From a bacterium (GTDB lineage Bacteria; Bacillota; Clostridia; UBA1381), in the NCBI GenBank assembly GCA_030536655.1, contig JAUNPN010000007.1, positions 1 to 47,166 of the forward strand: 47,166 bases of DNA, given 5' to 3'. This document shows, piece by piece, positions 22,242 through 30,893 of the stretch. Positions within the stretch are counted from its first letter, which is position 1; every line of letters starts with the position of its first letter. Under the pieces are notes generated by a model that did not search any database, had not been told where the DNA came from, and saw only the letters and a list, made by a program, of their open reading frames with translations. Position numbers and translations under genes: made by a program.

Positions 22242-23810
22242 ATGAAAAAAATATTAATTATGGCAGCGGCAGCAGTAATCACGGTATCAGCGATTGCGTC
22301 GGCTGCTGAAAATGATATAACTGTTACAGTAAACGGAAACAGCGTTGGGTTTGAACAGCCGCCTGTTATTGATAATGACAGAACACTTGTGCCGATGCGC
22401 GCGATTTTTGAAGCATTGGGTGCGGAGGTTGAATGGGATGGAGAAACAAGGACTGTTACATCAACAAGAGGTGAAATAAAAATCAGTCTTGAAATCGACA
22501 GCAATATAATGACAGTCGGTGAAAGGGAGGTAACTCTTGACGTGCCGGCGAAGATTATAAATGACAGGACTATGGTTCCGGTGCGGGCTGTAAGTGAAGC
22601 AATGGAATGTGATGTGGACTGGAACGAAGAAGAAAGACGGGTAATAATAATGTCAACAGAAGAAAGTACGGCGCCGGAGGAAACATTAAATCCGAATTCA
22701 ACGGCAGAGCCGGCAGCGACAGAAGTTCCCGCAGCGACAGCGGCACCTGAAGCAGAGAAGTTTGCAGAGTCTGTAAAAACAGATATTGCAGATGATGTAA
22801 ATATATTTGATACGGAATGGATTATAGCCAAAACTGAAATAACGCCGACAGACGGAAAGGAAAAAGCTAACGAAAAGCTTTGTGCTACCGATTTTATATC
22901 GGTAAACAGCGGAAAGAGCTATTATGCATCGTATTATGATGTGAATAACTTTAAATTTGCGGGCGGATATTGTGTAAATTATGCATTTTACGATGCGGAT
23001 AAGAAATATATAAGCGGTGCGGCGGCAGATATGGCAAAGCCGGTAAAGGCGCCGGAATATGCTTCATATATAAGATATACGATAAAGCTTGAATCAACAG
23101 CCGAAAGAGCAATGATGTATCTTACATTTATGCAGACAGAGAAGGCTCCTGAAAAATTTGTAAAGAGCGAGAAGATAACAGCCTTGGCGGAAACAGAGCA
23201 GTTTAGGGATAAAAAGATATTTATTGTGGGAGATAACCAGGTTCAGAACAGCGGAGTATGGACGAGTATTCTGGATAAAAAACTCGGAGCAGGGGAGGTT
23301 GGAGTAAAAGGTTTTGGCAATATCAGATTTACAGTTAACGATTATTGCTCTTTGTGTATTGATAAAACCACAAACACATTTGCAGCAGATGCGGATTATA
23401 TGATAGTCAGTGTCGGATTTTATGATTGGATGAACAATTATGGAATCGGTACGGATATAAGCAGTAACGGCGGAATATATGACTTTCTTGATTCGGCAAA
23501 GAGCAAGTGGCCGAATACGCAGATTGTTATGATGACGCTTCCTTCGGCAAAGTACGCTGCGGATGGATTTACATCTGCGGGAATTTATAACACGCTTGGA
23601 ATGTCAACTTCCGATTACTCGGAGCAGATTGTTGAGGCCTGTGAGAGTAGGGGGATTCCCGTAATAGACATATCAAAGCTTTGGAATGAGAATGATATGG
23701 GTATATATATGAAGCAGAGTAATTTGAGTTATCTTTACCCGAATGAAGAGGGCGGAAAGCTTATTGCAGATAAAATATATGAAAAGCTTATAGAGTTGGA
23801 AAATAAATAA
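22242..23810 (+). CDS. Secreted stalk-domain protein with degenerate SGNH-like domain
   Basis: 522 residues. A signal peptide covers about 1-22. A copper-amine-oxidase N-terminal 'stalk' domain (25-137) shows two DRTLVPMRA / DRTMVPVRA repeats. A Thr/Pro/Ala linker (138-172), a beta-rich, possibly carbohydrate-binding, region (about 185-300) and a C-terminal SGNH-hydrolase-like fold (about 322-520) follow. In the last, the usual GDS is GDN (330-332), the GxND block reads GFYDW, and the catalytic DxxH is replaced by a YLYPN segment, so it is probably catalytically dead or uses other residues. Ribosome site GGAGAAGG. Likely extracellular. The specific role is unknown. Confidence 0.75.
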   Translation: MKKILIMAAAAVITVSAIASAAENDITVTVNGNSVGFEQPPVIDNDRTLVPMRAIFEALGAEVEWDGETRTVTSTRGEIKISLEIDSNIMTVGEREVTLDVPAKIINDRTMVPVRAVSEAMECDVDWNEEERRVIIMSTEESTAPEETLNPNSTAEPAATEVPAATAAPEAEKFAESVKTDIADDVNIFDTEWIIAKTEITPTDGKEKANEKLCATDFISVNSGKSYYASYYDVNNFKFAGGYCVNYAFYDADKKYISGAAADMAKPVKAPEYASYIRYTIKLESTAERAMMYLTFMQTEKAPEKFVKSEKITALAETEQFRDKKIFIVGDNQVQNSGVWTSILDKKLGAGEVGVKGFGNIRFTVNDYCSLCIDKTTNTFAADADYMIVSVGFYDWMNNYGIGTDISSNGGIYDFLDSAKSKWPNTQIVMMTLPSAKYAADGFTSAGIYNTLGMSTSDYSEQIVEACESRGIPVIDISKLWNENDMGIYMKQSNLSYLYPNEEGGKLIADKIYEKLIELENK

Positions 23811-24232: not shown

Positions 24233-25675
24233 CTAAAAAAATTTCCACTTTATAAAGACGTCGTCATTGTCAATCTCTATTTTTGCAATAAGACTGTCTA
24301 TTATATGACGCATCGTGTTGAGGTCGCAAGTGTCAAGACCGCTTCCTATTTCTGCGAGAATTTTTTTTGTTTCCGAAACCGATAATACCGGTGGGATTTC
24401 TTTTACTGCTTCAAGCTTTTCCATGAGCAGACTTTGCTCTGCTTGAAGCTTGCTTAGACGGTCAGATATGATTGATTTGTCTATATTACCGATAAGGTAC
24501 AAGTCCATAACCTTGTCAATTTGCTTTTTGATGTAATTGAGACGGTTATTTAAAGCTGCTTGTTCCGCAGCCTTTGTGTCTGCTGCTCTGTGCTCGGAAA
24601 GCAGCTGTTCTATTGATTCGGGGTGTGAGGTTAACCCTTTTATTTGGGTTATGACCATTAAATCCAACTCTTTACGGTTTACTATCTTGTTACGGCAGTT
24701 TGAGTCTTTGACCATGTGTTTTGCTAAACCATAACGGCTGTAACATATGTATTTCGGGTATTCATATACTTTTTTTCCGTTTGTGTTTCTTCTGGTCATT
24801 GCAAAATAACGACCTCCGCATTGACGGCAGTATAAAAAACCGCCGAGCAAGCTTGTATGCTGAAAGGCGCTCTTTCTATCCGGATTTCTTTTGTCACGTT
24901 CTTTGAGCTTTTCTGTTGCTGCGTCAAGAGTTTCCTGTGAAATTATCGCTTCATGCTGTCCGGGAACAATGTCATTTCCGATATGTGTCCATCCGGCATA
25001 CAGTTCATTATGAAGAATATATCTTATTCTGTTCTCATTATGCTCCCACGTACCGTGCTTATGTGTATAGCCTGCGTCAGTCATTTTTTTGGAGATAGAC
25101 GTTATAGCATCGCCTTCAAGAAAAAGACGGAATATCTCGCGAATCTGCCGGGCTTCGTATTCGTTTATGACTAATTTGCCGTTTTCGTAGTCATAGCCGA
25201 TTGGCAGACTTCCGCCGTGATATAGTCCCTTCTTTGCTCTGGCTTCCTTACCCATTTTTGAGCGTTCACGAAACTGCTCTCGCTCCAGCTGAGCAAATAC
25301 GGACAGAATACCTACCATTGCCCGCCCGAATGGAGTGGAAGTGTCAAAGTTTTCTGTTAAACTGGCAAAATGCACGTTATTTGCAAGAAAAACATCCTCT
25401 ATAAGATACAGTGTATCTTTTTGACTGCGGCTCAAACGGTCAAGTTTATAGACCAGAACAAGATCAATTTTACCGCCTTTAATATCGGCAATCATGCTTT
25501 GCAGACCGGGGCGGATCATAGATGCGCCGGAAAAACCTGCGTCTGTATAGCTCTTATAAACGTCCCAGCCTTTTGCGGCGCAGTATGCCTTCATGCGTTC
25601 GATTTGCTCACCGATACTCCATCCTTCACGAGCTTGTTCCAATGTGCTTACGCGCGGGTATAAAGCTACTTTCAT
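24233..25675 (-). CDS. Large serine recombinase
   Basis: 480 residues. The N-terminal resolvase catalytic domain has the nucleophile Ser10 in YPRVSTLEQ. Then come a Recombinase domain (about 160-260, including SITSISKKMTDAGY-like text), a zinc ribbon beginning CRQCGGRY and a coiled-coil region (about 370-440), the normal large serine integrase plan. Such enzymes join attP and attB without homology; phages, skin-type elements and transposons use them. AAGGAG lies 9 bases before ATG 25675. It converges on the truncated gene, so an attachment site probably lies near 24205-24235. No other phage or conjugation gene is nearby. Confidence 0.94.
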   Translation of the reverse strand: MKVALYPRVSTLEQAREGWSIGEQIERMKAYCAAKGWDVYKSYTDAGFSGASMIRPGLQSMIADIKGGKIDLVLVYKLDRLSRSQKDTLYLIEDVFLANNVHFASLTENFDTSTPFGRAMVGILSVFAQLEREQFRERSKMGKEARAKKGLYHGGSLPIGYDYENGKLVINEYEARQIREIFRLFLEGDAITSISKKMTDAGYTHKHGTWEHNENRIRYILHNELYAGWTHIGNDIVPGQHEAIISQETLDAATEKLKERDKRNPDRKSAFQHTSLLGGFLYCRQCGGRYFAMTRRNTNGKKVYEYPKYICYSRYGLAKHMVKDSNCRNKIVNRKELDLMVITQIKGLTSHPESIEQLLSEHRAADTKAAEQAALNNRLNYIKKQIDKVMDLYLIGNIDKSIISDRLSKLQAEQSLLMEKLEAVKEIPPVLSVSETKKILAEIGSGLDTCDLNTMRHIIDSLIAKIEIDNDDVFIKWKFF

Positions 25676-26201: not shown

Positions 26202-26230
26202 TTGACAAATGTAGCTATATATGCTATACT
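26202..26230 (+). promoter_or_regulatory. Promoter of the BlaI-M56 operon
   Basis: TTGACA, 17 bases, TATACT. An AT-only 10-bp hairpin (26169-26193) precedes it. The transcript would begin near 26237, leaving a leader of about 50 bases. Confidence 0.85.
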
Positions 26231-26252
26231 GTGTTTAGTAGCTACAAGTGTA
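26204..26252 (+). promoter_or_regulatory. Pair of BlaI-type operators around the promoter
   Basis: A perfect TACAAGTGTA at 26243-26252 matches the TACANNTGTA operator of BlaI/MecI/CopY repressors. GACAAATGTA at 26204-26213 matches with one change, imposed by the -35 box it overlaps. Centres are 39 bases apart, flanking the -10 box. This predicts autorepression by the BlaI-type protein encoded next. Confidence 0.75.
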
Positions 26253-26285
26253 ATTACACTGATTATCTGTGAGGAGGAGTTTTTG

Positions 26286-26657
26286 GTGCCTAATTCAAAA
26301 CAAACAATTACCGATTCGGAATATGAGATAATGAAAATATTATGGAATACAAATGAAAAGATGTCCGTAGCTGATGTAGTCACGGAACTTAAGAGTAATG
26401 ATTGGTCCGCCTCAACCGTTTCAACATTCCTTCAAAGACTTTTGAAAAAGGGAGTTGTTTCATGCGAGAAAAAAGGAAAGAGCAATTTATATTATCCGCT
26501 GCTTAAGCAGGAGGACTACAAGCTGAGTGAAACTGAAAGCTTTCTTTCAAAGCTGTACAAGGGTTCTGTAAAAAATCTTGTTGCGGCGCTGCATGAAAAC
26601 AAACGCCTTTCAAAGGAAGATGTATCGGATTTGAAAAAAATGTTTGATTTGGAATAA
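26286..26657 (+). CDS. BlaI/MecI-family transcriptional repressor
   Basis: 123 residues from GTG 26286, chosen because AGGAGG lies 8 bases upstream and the family motif SEYEIMKILW then begins at residue 11. An N-terminal winged helix (ITDSEYEIMKILW, ADVVTELK, TVSTFLQRLLKKG) is followed by a dimerisation helix region. BlaI repressors are inactivated by cleavage when a BlaR1-type M56 protease senses a signal, and that partner gene follows. The target is probably its own operon, given the operators upstream. The inducing signal is unknown, and no beta-lactamase is in the window. Confidence 0.92.
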   Translation: MPNSKQTITDSEYEIMKILWNTNEKMSVADVVTELKSNDWSASTVSTFLQRLLKKGVVSCEKKGKSNLYYPLLKQEDYKLSETESFLSKLYKGSVKNLVAALHENKRLSKEDVSDLKKMFDLE

Positions 26658-26672
26658 AACGGAGATTGCTAT

Positions 26673-26779
26673 GTTTGGAAAAAGATAAGCGGCACATCTC
26701 ACCGTCATTAGGGGCTTGAAGTACAGCGTACGACTGTGCTCCTCATAACGGCAGTCTGCTTGCTTCTCTTTTCCCAAAC
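26673..26779. other. Long imperfect hairpin between the repressor and M56 genes
   Basis: The outer arms GTTTGGAAAAAGATAAGC and GCTTCTCTTTTCCCAAAC pair well. A second tier pairs CCGTCATTAGGGGC (26702-26715) with GCTCCTCATAACGG (26738-26751). There is no coding capacity. It fills most of the 148-base gap between two genes that are normally adjacent or overlapping. It could be a decayed MITE-like element or an RNA structure tuning M56 expression. Confidence 0.6.
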
Positions 26780-26805
26780 GAATTGGTGAAAGGAGTTCGG
26801 ATTAT

Positions 26806-27636
26806 ATGTTTGAAATTTTCAAAACAATCCTTATTCTTAGCGGGCTGGGCTTCGGACTTACTGCTGTATTGCTGTGCCTTAAGCCTATTACGGCAAAGCG
26901 GCTTCCGGCAAAATGGCAGTACTGCGTATGGATAGCAGTCATGCTGTCTATGCTTATTCCGTTTTACAAGTTTATTCCGGCACGAGAGGTGCAGAGGCTT
27001 CCGATAATCACTCAGACAGTTCAGACGGAGCAGCCAGAAACCTCCGGTGAAAATGTCCCTGCGGTTATAATTGAAGATACGCCGATTGAGTATCGGGAAG
27101 TATCGATTACGCCCGGACACAACATAAGACTGCTTGATTTTGCGGCATACATATGGATTTCAGGCGTATGCGTGTTTTTGCTGATTGTATCAATCAGCTA
27201 TGCCGTATATCTTGCCCGAAAACGCCGGGAATCCGTTTTGCTTGAAAGCAGCGATACACTTGAAAGGGTAAAGGAAGAATTAAATATTAAGCGTGTTATC
27301 ATGCTGAAAACCTCACCTGAGGTTATATCACCGATGCTTGTCGGAGTATTTTTCCCGGCAATATACATTCCCTGCCGGGAAATCTCCGATGAGCGTATGC
27401 GTATGATATTCCTGCACGAGCTGACACATTACAAACGCGGTGATTTACTTATCAAATGGCTTTCTGTATTCGTCAATGCGCTGCATTGGTTTAATCCGCT
27501 TGCTTATCTGCTTTGCGCAAATATCAGCGAGTCGTGCGAGGTGTCATGTGATATGTCAGTAACGAGCATACTGTCCGATGAGGAACGGAAAATCTATATG
27601 AAAACGATACTTGACTTGGTAGAAGAAAAGGAGTAA
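26806..27636 (+). CDS. M56-family (BlaR1/MecR1-like) membrane metallopeptidase, short form
   Basis: 276 residues. Membrane segments at about 5-25, 38-54 and 112-136, then a cytoplasmic zinc-protease domain with HELTH (204-208) and ESCEVSCD (242-249) as the likely third-ligand region. In BlaR1-type receptors a fourth membrane helix and an extracellular sensor follow. Here the frame stops at 27636, just after the protease domain. The missing kind of segment (cytoplasmic linker plus membrane helix plus ectodomain) appears as a separate gene starting 4 bases later and again twice more. AAGGAG before ATG 26806. Probably cleaves the BlaI-type repressor on signal, if complemented by one of those partners. 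Confidence 0.88.
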   Translation: MFEIFKTILILSGLGFGLTAVLLCLKPITAKRLPAKWQYCVWIAVMLSMLIPFYKFIPAREVQRLPIITQTVQTEQPETSGENVPAVIIEDTPIEYREVSITPGHNIRLLDFAAYIWISGVCVFLLIVSISYAVYLARKRRESVLLESSDTLERVKEELNIKRVIMLKTSPEVISPMLVGVFFPAIYIPCREISDERMRMIFLHELTHYKRGDLLIKWLSVFVNALHWFNPLAYLLCANISESCEVSCDMSVTSILSDEERKIYMKTILDLVEEKE

Positions 27637-27640
27637 CAAA

Positions 27641-27838
27641 ATGCTTGAAAACCTATACACGACAAAAATGAGCGCCAACAGAAAAACGCTGCAAAACAGG
27701 TTTTCGCAAATCCGTTCGGAAGGCGGACGGTTTTCGAAAATTATGGCGGCCGTTATGTCTGCTGTTGTCGCTGTAACAATGCTCTGCGCGACTGTTGTTA
27801 TGGCGGCTGTCGGCACGGACGGACTGGAGCATTGGGAT
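27641..27838 (+). repeat. Conserved 5' module shared by three tandem genes
   Basis: Bases 27641-27838, 28777-28974 and (shorter) 29912-30076 are near-identical direct repeats encoding the same linker and membrane helix. Copies 2 and 3 also share the upstream AAGGAGGCTGCCGGA. Similarity stops abruptly after the module at DNA level. Confidence 0.85.
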
Positions 27839-28762
27839 GATATGGAGGTTTATTATACCGGCGGGTTAATTTTTGATATTAATATATCCGGGTTAAACGT
27901 GCCTGAGTATGTGAAAAATGAGATTGCCGGAGAAGACGGAAATATCCACTGCTGCTTTGACAAATATGATTTACGTTATCCCGGAGGTATAATTAATGAT
28001 ACCGGCAAGCTGACGCTTTCGGGAAACAGGGGGCAGATGATTTTTGCGCTTATGGATAACTACTGGCCGTTTGCTCCCGACAGTCAACGGGAAGTAAAAC
28101 TGGCGCGGCAAAATGACGCGGAATTTATGACTGGATATATATTTTGTGTATCAGATTCAAAATTTTCGTCTAATGCAATGGACGCCTTTAATATTCCGTT
28201 AGCGGACAGCGAGCATTGGATAAACATTTATTTTGCGATTTCCGACAATAAGCCAAAAAAAATAATCTTCAGCTTTGACGGAGAATATGTACTTTCGGAG
28301 GACTACCGCCGAATTAATATAGGTGAAAATATGGATTGCCCGGAGGTTCAGAATGTGAAGTTTTTGGGAGATTTAAAAGATGTAGTACCTTATTTTAATA
28401 AAATGGTCCGAGGAGGAAGAGTGTTTAATGCTTATGAGCAAAAATATTATCAAAATATAAAAACAGATGATTTTATAATAACCTTGGCAAGCGCGGACGA
28501 AAACAGCGTCAGCCTGATAAACCGTATCAATTACAGCGGTGAGAGCATAGATTTTGCTCTCGTACAGATTTATGATGAAAATAATATTATGGTTTTTGAC
28601 AACGACGTTCGTTATCCCGATCTCAATGGATTAATGAAAATCAGCGCGCCAAATGATGAAAGGCTTGAGCACGGCAGGACTTATCGTGTAGAAACCTCGT
28701 ATTGGCATGGTTCTATGGATAATCTTATTTATCGCCGATTGGATTATGTTACAATTCGTTAA
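27641..28762 (+). CDS. Membrane-anchored ectodomain protein 1 (tandem paralogue; M56 receptor C-terminal-like)
   Basis: 373 residues. Residues 1-32 are basic and cytoplasmic (KMSANRKTLQNRFSQIR), 33-57 form one membrane helix, and the remainder is predicted outside. The first 66 codons are nearly identical to the next paralogue. The ectodomain then resembles it only at protein level (NISGLNVPEYVKNEIAG versus NISGKEVPQWLKDDIAG). The start module resembles the segment that follows the protease domain in full-length M56 receptors. Its ribosome site AAGGAG lies in the last codons of the M56 gene, so translation is coupled. The ectodomain has no family I recognise. Confidence 0.7.
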   Translation: MLENLYTTKMSANRKTLQNRFSQIRSEGGRFSKIMAAVMSAVVAVTMLCATVVMAAVGTDGLEHWDDMEVYYTGGLIFDINISGLNVPEYVKNEIAGEDGNIHCCFDKYDLRYPGGIINDTGKLTLSGNRGQMIFALMDNYWPFAPDSQREVKLARQNDAEFMTGYIFCVSDSKFSSNAMDAFNIPLADSEHWINIYFAISDNKPKKIIFSFDGEYVLSEDYRRINIGENMDCPEVQNVKFLGDLKDVVPYFNKMVRGGRVFNAYEQKYYQNIKTDDFIITLASADENSVSLINRINYSGESIDFALVQIYDENNIMVFDNDVRYPDLNGLMKISAPNDERLEHGRTYRVETSYWHGSMDNLIYRRLDYVTIR

Positions 28763-28776
28763 AGGAGGCTGCCGGA

Positions 28777-29898
28777 ATGCTTGAGAATTTATACACAACA
28801 AAAATGAGCTCCAACAGAAAAACGCTGCAAAACAGGTTTTCAAAAATCCGTTCGGAAGGCGGACGGTTTTCAAAAATCATGGCGGCTGTTATGTCTGCGG
28901 TTGTCGCTGTAACAATGCTCTGCGCGACTGTTGTTATGGCGGCTGTCGGCGCGGACGGACTGGAGCATTGGGATAAAACTGAAATATATTTCCGTGACGG
29001 AATTGATTTCAGTATGAATATAAGCGGTAAAGAAGTACCGCAGTGGCTGAAAGACGACATAGCCGGAAACGGTGATACAGTAAGCTTTAAGCTCAGAAAT
29101 TATGAAGTCAGATTTCCCAACGGGCTTGTAAATTACGGCGGTTTAGCGGAAGTATCAGGTGTAAACGGCACATTTGTATATCCGTGTGAAGTTAATATCG
29201 GTATCCCGGATGGAATCGGAAGTAGTAGGTATGATAAACGTGATTTAAACATATTATACAGAGAGACAGGAGCTTCATATTTTACCGGATTATCCTATGA
29301 AAAAAGAGGTTTCGGCGGAAGCGGTCATATTATAGCATCCAGAGCAGCTGCGGATAAATACGCAGCCGACAATAATCTGGAAATCGGCACAAGGGATAAC
29401 TTTGATATCTTGTTCGGCTTTTCTGAAGCCGATGAGTTAATTTCAGTTAGTTTTACAGCTTATTATAATGTTCCGAAATTCTATCATATTCAGGCGGAGC
29501 TTGCTTCCGTAAAAATGATAGGAGGCATTGAAAACAGAATTACAAATGAATGGGAGCTGGCGCCTACAGGGGGAGCATTTGCTTCTTTTGAAGAAAACTA
29601 TGAAAATATTTCTACAGAATATGCGGATATTTCTGTTATATCAGCTGACACTCAAAAAATTGCTTTAAAAACTGAGATTAAATTTGAAGGAAACAACCTT
29701 ATTTATGCAGATGTTTATAAGGGCAAAGAGCGCATCGGTACTATACGCGGAGAACCGCATTACGGCAATATTATCATAAATATTGATAAAACAGTCGATT
29801 CAGGCGACAAATGCAGAATTGATTTATATATAATGAATGATTATAACAGTAACCAACGCATTATTTACCGCTGGCAAAAGTATATAAGATTACAATAA
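28777..29898 (+). CDS. Membrane-anchored ectodomain protein 2 (tandem paralogue)
   Basis: 373 residues, the same length as paralogue 1. The same cytoplasmic linker (KMSSNRKTLQNRFSKIR) and membrane helix (about 33-57), then an ectodomain homologous to, but strongly diverged from, that of paralogue 1. Recognisable shared positions include EIYFRDG, NISGKEVPQWLKDDIAG and NYEVRFPNGLVN. Preceded by AAGGAGG, 14 bases after the previous stop. Being a duplicate of 1 with a conserved inner and a divergent outer part, it may sense a different ligand. Function unproven. Confidence 0.7.
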   Translation: MLENLYTTKMSSNRKTLQNRFSKIRSEGGRFSKIMAAVMSAVVAVTMLCATVVMAAVGADGLEHWDKTEIYFRDGIDFSMNISGKEVPQWLKDDIAGNGDTVSFKLRNYEVRFPNGLVNYGGLAEVSGVNGTFVYPCEVNIGIPDGIGSSRYDKRDLNILYRETGASYFTGLSYEKRGFGGSGHIIASRAAADKYAADNNLEIGTRDNFDILFGFSEADELISVSFTAYYNVPKFYHIQAELASVKMIGGIENRITNEWELAPTGGAFASFEENYENISTEYADISVISADTQKIALKTEIKFEGNNLIYADVYKGKERIGTIRGEPHYGNIIINIDKTVDSGDKCRIDLYIMNDYNSNQRIIYRWQKYIRLQ

Positions 29899-29911
29899 GG
29901 AGGCTGCCGGA

Positions 29912-30859
29912 ATGCTTGAGAATTTATACACAACGAAAATGAGCGCCAACAGAAAAACGCTGCAAAACAGGTTTTCGAAAATCCGTTCGGAAAGCGGACG
30001 GTTTTCGAAAATCATGGCGGCTGTTATGTCTGCTGTTGTCGCTGTAACAATGCTATGCGCTACTATCGTTATGGCGTCGATAGAATCGGAAAATGAAATA
30101 GTATATGAAGTTTATAACGGCAATACAAAAATAAATCTTCAAAATTCACCTTTTATTTATAACGATAACTATTATCTGCCCTTACGTGAAACTTTAAATG
30201 CTTTTGGTATAAATGATATAGAATATGACAACGGAACAATCAAAATCACAATGCCGGACGCTCAGCGCAGACGCTGGGCTTGGGCAAACTATTGCGAAAT
30301 ATCATTGACAAGCGACGAGGTTATATATAAAAACGGTAATGCCGGAACTTCAAGCATGGACAAACCCCCGGTTCTAAAAAACGGAACCGTTTATGTAACG
30401 GAGCATTTTTTCTCCGACTTAATAAGAGCCGGTCAAATTCCCGGCTTCCGTTTTAAGGTTATCAGAGATTTATCGCCGGAAAGCTATTATAATATAGGCG
30501 AGGAAGTCTTTATAGGTACGTTGGAGGAACAGGAGCGGTTTGAGCCTGATGGGGATAATTTTGTAAAAAGAATCATTGTCGATGAAAACAGAAACACTGT
30601 AGCGGTAATTCCGGTAGAAAATCAAATGCCGGATAAAGTACACTCTGTTGAACGAAACGGCAATTGTTTCAGCGCCGATAACTATACAGGGTTATTTCAG
30701 GGATGTTTTTACAATATGAGTTCCGCCGGAAAGGCGGTATACAAAAACAGCGGAATTGTAGTCTATCAGTCAAATAACCCCGCCGCCTTCATTCCTGCTG
30801 TATGGCAGATTAATATTCCTCAGCCGGATTTGTCGGCGCTTGACGAGGTTATTCAGTAA
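29912..30859 (+). CDS. Membrane-anchored ectodomain protein 3 with stalk-like domain (tandem paralogue)
   Basis: 315 residues. Linker and membrane helix as in paralogues 1 and 2 (residues 1-55), but the ectodomain is unrelated to theirs. It begins with a copper-amine-oxidase-N-like segment (YLPLRETLNAFGINDIEYD, then GTIKITMP), similar to the wall-associated 'stalk' domains elsewhere in this window. So the same anchor carries a different outer domain, which suggests domain shuffling behind a fixed module. Ribosome site AAGGAGG, 13 bases after the previous stop. Last gene of the BlaI operon; a UUCG terminator follows. Confidence 0.7.
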   Translation: MLENLYTTKMSANRKTLQNRFSKIRSESGRFSKIMAAVMSAVVAVTMLCATIVMASIESENEIVYEVYNGNTKINLQNSPFIYNDNYYLPLRETLNAFGINDIEYDNGTIKITMPDAQRRRWAWANYCEISLTSDEVIYKNGNAGTSSMDKPPVLKNGTVYVTEHFFSDLIRAGQIPGFRFKVIRDLSPESYYNIGEEVFIGTLEEQERFEPDGDNFVKRIIVDENRNTVAVIPVENQMPDKVHSVERNGNCFSADNYTGLFQGCFYNMSSAGKAVYKNSGIVVYQSNNPAAFIPAVWQINIPQPDLSALDEVIQ

Positions 30860-30863
30860 CAGC

Positions 30864-30893
30864 TTAAAGAGGCTGCTTCGGCGGCCTCTTTAA
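30864..30893. terminator. UUCG-capped terminator, probably bidirectional
   Basis: 13-bp stem TTAAAGAGGCTGC / GCGGCCTCTTTAA with one G-U pair and a TTCG tetraloop, between converging genes. Confidence 0.85.

Follow-up and report, generated by a model that had tools for sequence, protein, structure and literature searches.

The window analysed here is the whole 47,166-nucleotide stretch (positions 1 to 47,166 of the forward strand) of contig JAUNPN010000007.1 in GenBank assembly GCA_030536655.1, from a bacterium of the lineage UBA1381 (Bacillota; Clostridia). It contains an operon whose genes occupy 26286-30859 and encode a BlaI-type repressor, a short M56 metalloprotease and three tandem membrane proteins, here called anchors, each starting with a basic cytoplasmic linker and one membrane helix and continuing into an outer domain; the promoter and the terminator extend the operon beyond the genes (Table 1). 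BlaR1 and MecR1, receptors built around an M56 protease, are the textbook route from a beta-lactam outside the cell to the expression of resistance genes, and there is continuing debate about how the outer domain of BlaR1 governs the protease inside. A first-pass annotation of this DNA had proposed that such a receptor is divided here into one protease and several sensor halves. The gene arrangement it described was recovered in full: the M56 open reading frame stops right after its protease domain, only the letters CAAA stand between its TAA and the ATG of anchor 1 at 27641, which thus comes four bases later, and the three linker-helix genes lie in tandem. Its extent of 26806-30859 holds the M56 gene and the anchors; blaI, the promoter with its operators and the terminator hairpin lie outside it.

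Table 1. Genes and predicted signals of the operon (positions in the window).
Feature	Position	Strand	Basis and remarks
Sigma-70-type promoter, TTGACA-17-TATACT with TG extension	26202..26230	+	11/12 matches to consensus
Two predicted BlaI-like operator elements	26210..26260	+	TGTAGCTATA at 26210-26219 in the promoter spacer; TAGTAGCTACAAGTGTAATTACACT at 26236-26260 just downstream of the -10; read from sequence
blaI, BlaI/MecI-type repressor, GTG start after GAGGAGG	26286..26657	+	PF03965, E 8.2e-34
M56 metalloprotease subunit, 276 aa	26806..27636	+	PF05569, E 1.9e-49, profile 14-268 of 296
Anchor 1, 373 aa: linker, one helix, all-beta ectodomain with C-terminal domain like fibronectin type III (FnIII)	27641..28762	+	
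Plug-in cassette of anchor 1: linker plus helix, built like those of anchors 2 and 3	27641..27838	+	Tyr6-Met10 at 27656-27670; Arg20 at 27698-27700
Plug-in cassette of anchor 2, with ribosome-binding stretch	28762..28974	+	AAGGAGGCTGCCGGA at 28762-28776, overlapping the end of gene 1
Anchor 2, 373 aa: linker and helix as in anchor 1, ectodomain of the anchor 1 family	28777..29898	+	
Plug-in cassette of anchor 3	29897..30076	+	includes AAGGAGGCTGCCGGA at 29897-29911
Anchor 3, 315 aa: common linker and helix, ectodomain with Cu_amine_oxidN1	29912..30859	+	PF07833, E 1.6e-10
Terminator-like hairpin closing the operon	30864..30893	+	13 pairs

The M56 protein of the window carries the zinc gluzincin features of BlaR1 and MecR1, namely the HELTH zinc motif, EVSCD as the ExxxD motif and Tyr264, and H204, E205, H208, E245, D249 and Y264 were invariant in 48 aligned M56 rows. 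Its alignment covers residues 4-269 of Staphylococcus aureus BlaR1. Taken alone, it matches PF05569 only as far as profile position 268 of 296; with the N-terminus of an anchor appended, the score rose from 168.9 to 175.7 bits and the match reached position 296. A hidden Markov model (HMM) of the anchor N-terminus, for its part, matched one-piece M56 receptors, in which protease and sensor share a chain, immediately after the M56 domain (best E 2e-8, starting at position 7 of the model). Segments homologous to the anchors thus do follow an M56 domain in full-length receptors of the same genomes.

In BlaR1, residues 271-289 form an autocleavage loop that occupies the active site as an inhibitory substrate and is cut between Ser283 and Phe284, with Leu280 as P4; a domain-swapped helix contributes Arg294, the partner of Asp246, and when Arg293/Arg294 are mutated, activity drops severely and signalling is crippled (PMC9834060). 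A one-piece receptor of the genome under study (L005) aligns with this region of BlaR1 without gaps (LTTQ/MAGSKRVLKRR against LSHS/FNGKKSLLKRR, with a slash at the cut), and the window anchors read YTTK/MSANRKTLQNR from residue 6. The gapless alignment fixes the register of the anchors, in which Tyr6 corresponds to Leu280, Met10 to Phe284 and Arg20 to Arg294. By this alignment, both the cleavage-site segment YTTK/M and the equivalent of Arg294 sit on the anchors, and the M56 chain has neither. Thr8, Arg20 and Phe21 were invariant in all 76 anchors compared. Because the BlaR1 register, the Pfam extension and the HMM matches agree, we identify the linker and helix of the anchors as the portion of a receptor that the M56 chain lacks. 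The three results place the gene boundary inside the autocleavage loop, before the cleavage segment. The position of this boundary is nearly constant: in the set compared, split M56 proteins end within -4 to +5 residues of the end of the window M56, the exception being L085 at +10.

The same register was seen in a fold prediction for locus L057, where M56 and anchor lie in one frame and the stop was read as a residue to give a single read-through chain. The model matched BlaR1 with Z 20.5 and a root-mean-square deviation (rmsd) of 3.5 over 241 aligned residues, its residues 6-298 lying on residues 1-289 of the BlaR1 chain and anchor Met10 staying at Phe284. A further match, to ZMPSTE24, ran through the linker helix as well (Z 10.8, rmsd 4.0, 171 residues). 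Since the chain was read through, these superpositions indicate compatibility of the two parts, not binding.

The first-pass annotation had asked for a survey of the order BlaI, short M56 and linker-helix genes. We observed this order, with one to three anchors, at 51 loci, drawn from genomes of the order to which this bacterium belongs and from seven GenBank metagenome contigs (L013, L018, L019, L020, L022, L023 and L024); one anchor was present in 33 of the complete loci, two in 14 and three in four. Stand-alone anchors occurred in 32 of 95 genomes of the order, and seven more genomes matched through one-piece receptors only. Outside the order, no stand-alone anchor was found in a 398-genome sample of the phylum, the single extra match being fused. 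Of the M56 matches met elsewhere in a sample of 149 genomes, the strongest were mostly on longer frames that reach the end of the profile. The split system is thus carried by one family of uncultured gut Clostridia.

Of the 54 M56 domains placed in a tree, 25, all of them split, grouped in a single clade (support 100/99), so that, as read from this tree, the split in the window genome is old and inherited and no recent break. The split M56 domains of L083 and L085 were placed outside this main clade. The starred branches of the tree force at least two changes, and the best tree needs three; the positions of L083 and L085 suggest that the same cut arose more than once.

The arrangement could in principle come from a broken receptor, that is, a frameshift or an assembly error in a one-piece gene followed by duplication of its tail, and the M56 and anchor halves are indeed homologous to one continuous protein. 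However, the 51 loci come from many assemblies and show all three relative frames of the M56 and anchor genes (21/15/15). Most junctions between the two genes measure -44 to +39 base pairs (bp); five loci have one of 201-263 bp, and a single locus has one of 1751 bp. Moreover, the 25 split M56 genes form a well-supported clade, and the ratios of nonsynonymous to synonymous substitution (dN/dS) are about 0.05-0.3 for BlaI, M56, the linker and most ectodomain comparisons, which means purifying selection on all parts. The mixed frames and junction lengths rule out a shared frameshift or read-through, and we give the broken-receptor explanation practically no chance; a simple frameshift at 27634-27641, the doubt raised at first, is excluded by the conserved split and the three frames. 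A frameshift, pseudogene or recoding origin was accordingly rejected on conservation, mixed frames and purifying selection. A programmed frameshift or stop read-through, which would join M56 and anchor 1 into a one-piece receptor, is very improbable. At 15 of the 51 junctions the genes are in frame and close together, but the other frames are as well represented, and each of the anchors starts at an ATG of its own behind a separate ribosome-binding stretch. Anchors 2 and 3 do not directly follow an M56 gene, and there are junctions of 200-1751 bp.

Several loci depart from the compact layout. At L150 (G023:C150) the split M56 and two anchors are 1751 bp apart, and the two anchors of L062 are separated by 620 bp. 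At L134 (G082:C51) an intact anchor is preceded by an M56 that is broken up over two frames of 190 and 120 aa. In another family of the phylum, an M56 match runs across one TAG (G104:C52:24195-24959, in a frame of 349 aa), which may mean a further split or a damaged gene. In the window, blaI and M56 are spaced by 148 bp (26658-26805); in many related loci these two genes abut or overlap.

We then compared the anchors with one another. Over 56 codons covering the linker and the helix, the window anchors are 93-96% identical in amino acids and 91-93% in nucleotides, and the similarity ends sharply at the end of the helix. The proposal of a different outer domain on each anchor holds for anchor 3, whose Cu_amine_oxidN1 domain is of another kind, and not for anchors 1 and 2, whose ectodomains belong to one family (41% local identity) and gave no significant Pfam match. 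The predicted fold of anchor 1 is confident and shows an all-beta ectodomain ending like an FnIII domain; a fold search returned FnIII-like parts only and no whole-length match, which does not demonstrate a new fold. The ectodomain of anchor 3 is homologous to that of one-piece receptor L095 (E 1.5e-17) and to that of L010 from the same genome (2.3e-12), and similar homologies link the first anchor of L062 to L075 (4e-40) and the second anchor of L020 to L097 (5e-29). On the basis of this homology to the ectodomains of one-piece M56 receptors, the anchors are probably the sensor halves of a receptor. Together with the 51 loci, it supports the proposal that the sensor half was separated from M56 and multiplied. 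Among the 76 anchors, Pfam domains were Cu_amine_oxidN1 in 25, Peptidase_M23 in five and DUF4829 in three, and none of the 76 matched a transpeptidase or beta-lactamase family (Pfam, E 0.001). On this evidence the anchors are not beta-lactam sensors. Some anchors end in Peptidase_M23 (L056 6314-7351, L062 4914-5957 and L066 5483-6874), a wall-cutting or wall-binding domain on a BlaR1-type linker. The window genome (G000) itself encodes seven further one-piece M56 receptors (L005-L011), with varied outer domains.

The shared 5' part of the anchors behaves as a cassette. At the DNA level, the three window anchors agree at 91-93% over their first 165-198 bases. Copies 2 and 3 also have the 15 bases ahead of the start codon in common, and synonymous differences number 6-9 in 46-48 codons among the window anchors, against 13-25 in 26-39 codons between genomes. 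These comparisons show that the cassette has been homogenised among the window anchors. Ectodomains were exchanged as well: in the second anchors of L129 and L019, linker and helix are 87-92% identical and most of the ectodomain 97-100% (synonymous divergence, dS, 0.46 against 0.05), and in the first anchors of L135 and L138 linker identity is 80-98%, with ectodomains that show no relationship at that level. A mosaic of the same kind was seen between L063 and L064. Because the source is metagenome assemblies, chimeric contigs are a caveat for any one pair; the mosaic pattern repeats, and by these alignments the ectodomains have been exchanged between loci on the local linker, independently of it. 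We found no relatives of anchor 1 in a plasmid collection and none of the anchor N-terminus in viral contigs. The distances of M56 and linker correlate at 0.887, and at 0.61 once BlaI distances are removed (0/2000 permutations); as M56, linker and BlaI lie in one operon, this correlation is supportive, not decisive.

The first anchor alone might be the receptor partner, with the later copies being decoys, antagonists or drifting duplicates. The first anchor does differ from the later ones in helix and linker at many loci (L015, L017 and L019, with 48-59% N-terminal identity), and most loci have one anchor only. Nevertheless, later anchors are under purifying selection and retain Thr8, Arg20 and Phe21, the window N-termini are all 93-96% identical, and an orphan anchor, described below, retains the operator of the family. 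We consider this explanation improbable.

As BlaR1 and MecR1 receptors do, the system has an adjacent repressor gene and a predicted dyad operator at the promoter. The promoter layout of the window recurs 5' of blaI in many related loci, and the operator sequence, with TGTAGCTA(CA) inside the spacer of the promoter and GTAGCTACAAGTGTAATTACACT behind the -10, keeps its layout in about 14 loci; a second M56 subclade has a different dyad. The operator is present in a single copy in the window genome. In the 95 genomes, a search with the operator pattern (up to three mismatches) gave ten matches: eight upstream of blaI in these loci, of which G008:C65 has no M56, one upstream of an orphan anchor and one inside a transporter gene. 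The orphan anchor (L058 5742-6824, G006:C17) has its own promoter with a BlaI-type operator and sits on another contig of G006, distant from every blaI and M56 gene. Of the natural arrangements observed, this anchor, which shares the operator but has no adjoining protease, argues best for action in trans. With the homogenised cassette and the exchange of ectodomains between loci, it supports the earlier view that the sensor half is exchangeable.

The same operator search can be read in another way, in which the anchors are mainly outputs: surface proteins whose shared linker is a processing tag cut by M56, with BlaI only autoregulating the operon. The anchors would then be the only visible regulon, as the operator was found only at the operons and at one orphan anchor. 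The Peptidase_M23 domain in 5/76 anchors and the HxGxD and HLH motifs in the third anchor of L017 suggest that some may act on the wall, and the end of the anchor helix resembles a signal peptide. However, the linker keeps the BlaR1 register and an invariant arginine that is an active-site residue in BlaR1, and the outer domains are homologous to those in the sensor position of one-piece M56 receptors. We therefore regard the output explanation as unlikely, though it deserves more weight than the others.

Overall, the operon probably encodes a split BlaR1-type M56 receptor made up of a single membrane protease plus several sensor subunits that can stand in for one another. Each anchor would comprise a cytoplasmic linker (the second half of the autocleavage loop and helix alpha-9), the fourth membrane helix and an outer domain. 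At rest, its YTTK/M segment would occupy the active site of the protease, acting as plug or substrate, while Arg20 of the anchor would pair with protease Asp249, as Arg294 does with Asp246 in BlaR1. With this arginine on the anchor, a protease without an anchor would lack an active-site arginine, and each anchor may both plug and complete the protease. Once the two chains had assembled, an outer domain meeting its cue would shift the linker or have it cleaved, and the protease would cut BlaI, derepressing the operon and other anchor genes with the same operator. Any anchor with a matching linker could serve, so that one protease and one repressor would answer several cues, and new cues could be added by recombination of an outer domain onto the linker. 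The fullest form of this model is more tentative, and we hold it as a serious possibility that falls somewhat short of an even chance: any one of several sensors would complete and gate, in trans, a catalytically incomplete M56 by supplying both plug and active-site arginine; the sensors would swap outer domains on a homogenised linker and might be encoded far from the protease, and one BlaI circuit would integrate many cues.

Several observations weigh against the split-receptor model. A single anchor is present in 33/51 complete loci, hence multi-sensor use is not general. The anchor helix ends in an AxA-like motif, where signal peptidase could cut. The contact between M56 and anchor is predicted from a fused chain, which biases the model towards contact, and the distance correlation partly reflects common descent of operon neighbours. 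In G008:C65 (L065 5854-7517), BlaI and an anchor stand 131 bp apart under the same operator with no M56 between them, and no matching split-type M56 was present among the G008 M56 matches listed. Finally, the pattern search of the 95 genomes returned no operator-bearing targets beyond the operons and the one orphan anchor.

Compared with S. aureus BlaR1/BlaI and MecR1/MecI, the split receptor shares the M56 gluzincin fold and motifs, the adjoining BlaI-type repressor, the autocleavage-loop segment, the alpha-9 arginine and a fourth helix with an outer domain. BlaR1, however, is a single chain with a penicillin-binding sensor, whereas the split receptor has its chain divided within the autocleavage loop and one to three copies of the sensor. 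The one-piece M56 receptors of the same genomes (L005, L010, L095) have a homologous protease, linker and helix and several of the same ectodomain families, but are single chains of 500-850 aa with one sensor per protease. Autocleaved BlaR1 (Ser283/Phe284 fragments) also has its protease and sensor halves on two chains with the break in the same loop; there the break is proteolytic and falls after P4-P1, whereas here it is genetic and falls before P4-P1, which leaves the cleavage segment complete on the sensor subunit. In the BlaR homologue of Mycobacterium tuberculosis, the M56 protease chain carries no equivalent of the sensor domain (PMC9834060); a partner sensor subunit is not described for it, whereas here the partners are encoded directly downstream. 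A search of open-licence literature gave BlaR1 work but no description of a split or multi-sensor M56 receptor, which is weak evidence of absence. If the split-receptor model is true, gating element, active-site arginine and sensor lie by nature on separate, swappable proteins and can each be tested alone. M56/BlaI signalling would then be a general modular input system rather than a beta-lactam detector, and would provide a plug-in sensor platform.

In the neighbourhood of the operon, a gene for a large serine recombinase lies just upstream on the opposite strand (24233-25675). A further protein with a strong Cu_amine_oxidN1 match (E 4.9e-41), the domain type of anchor 3, is encoded at 22242-23810, 2.5 kb upstream of the operon.

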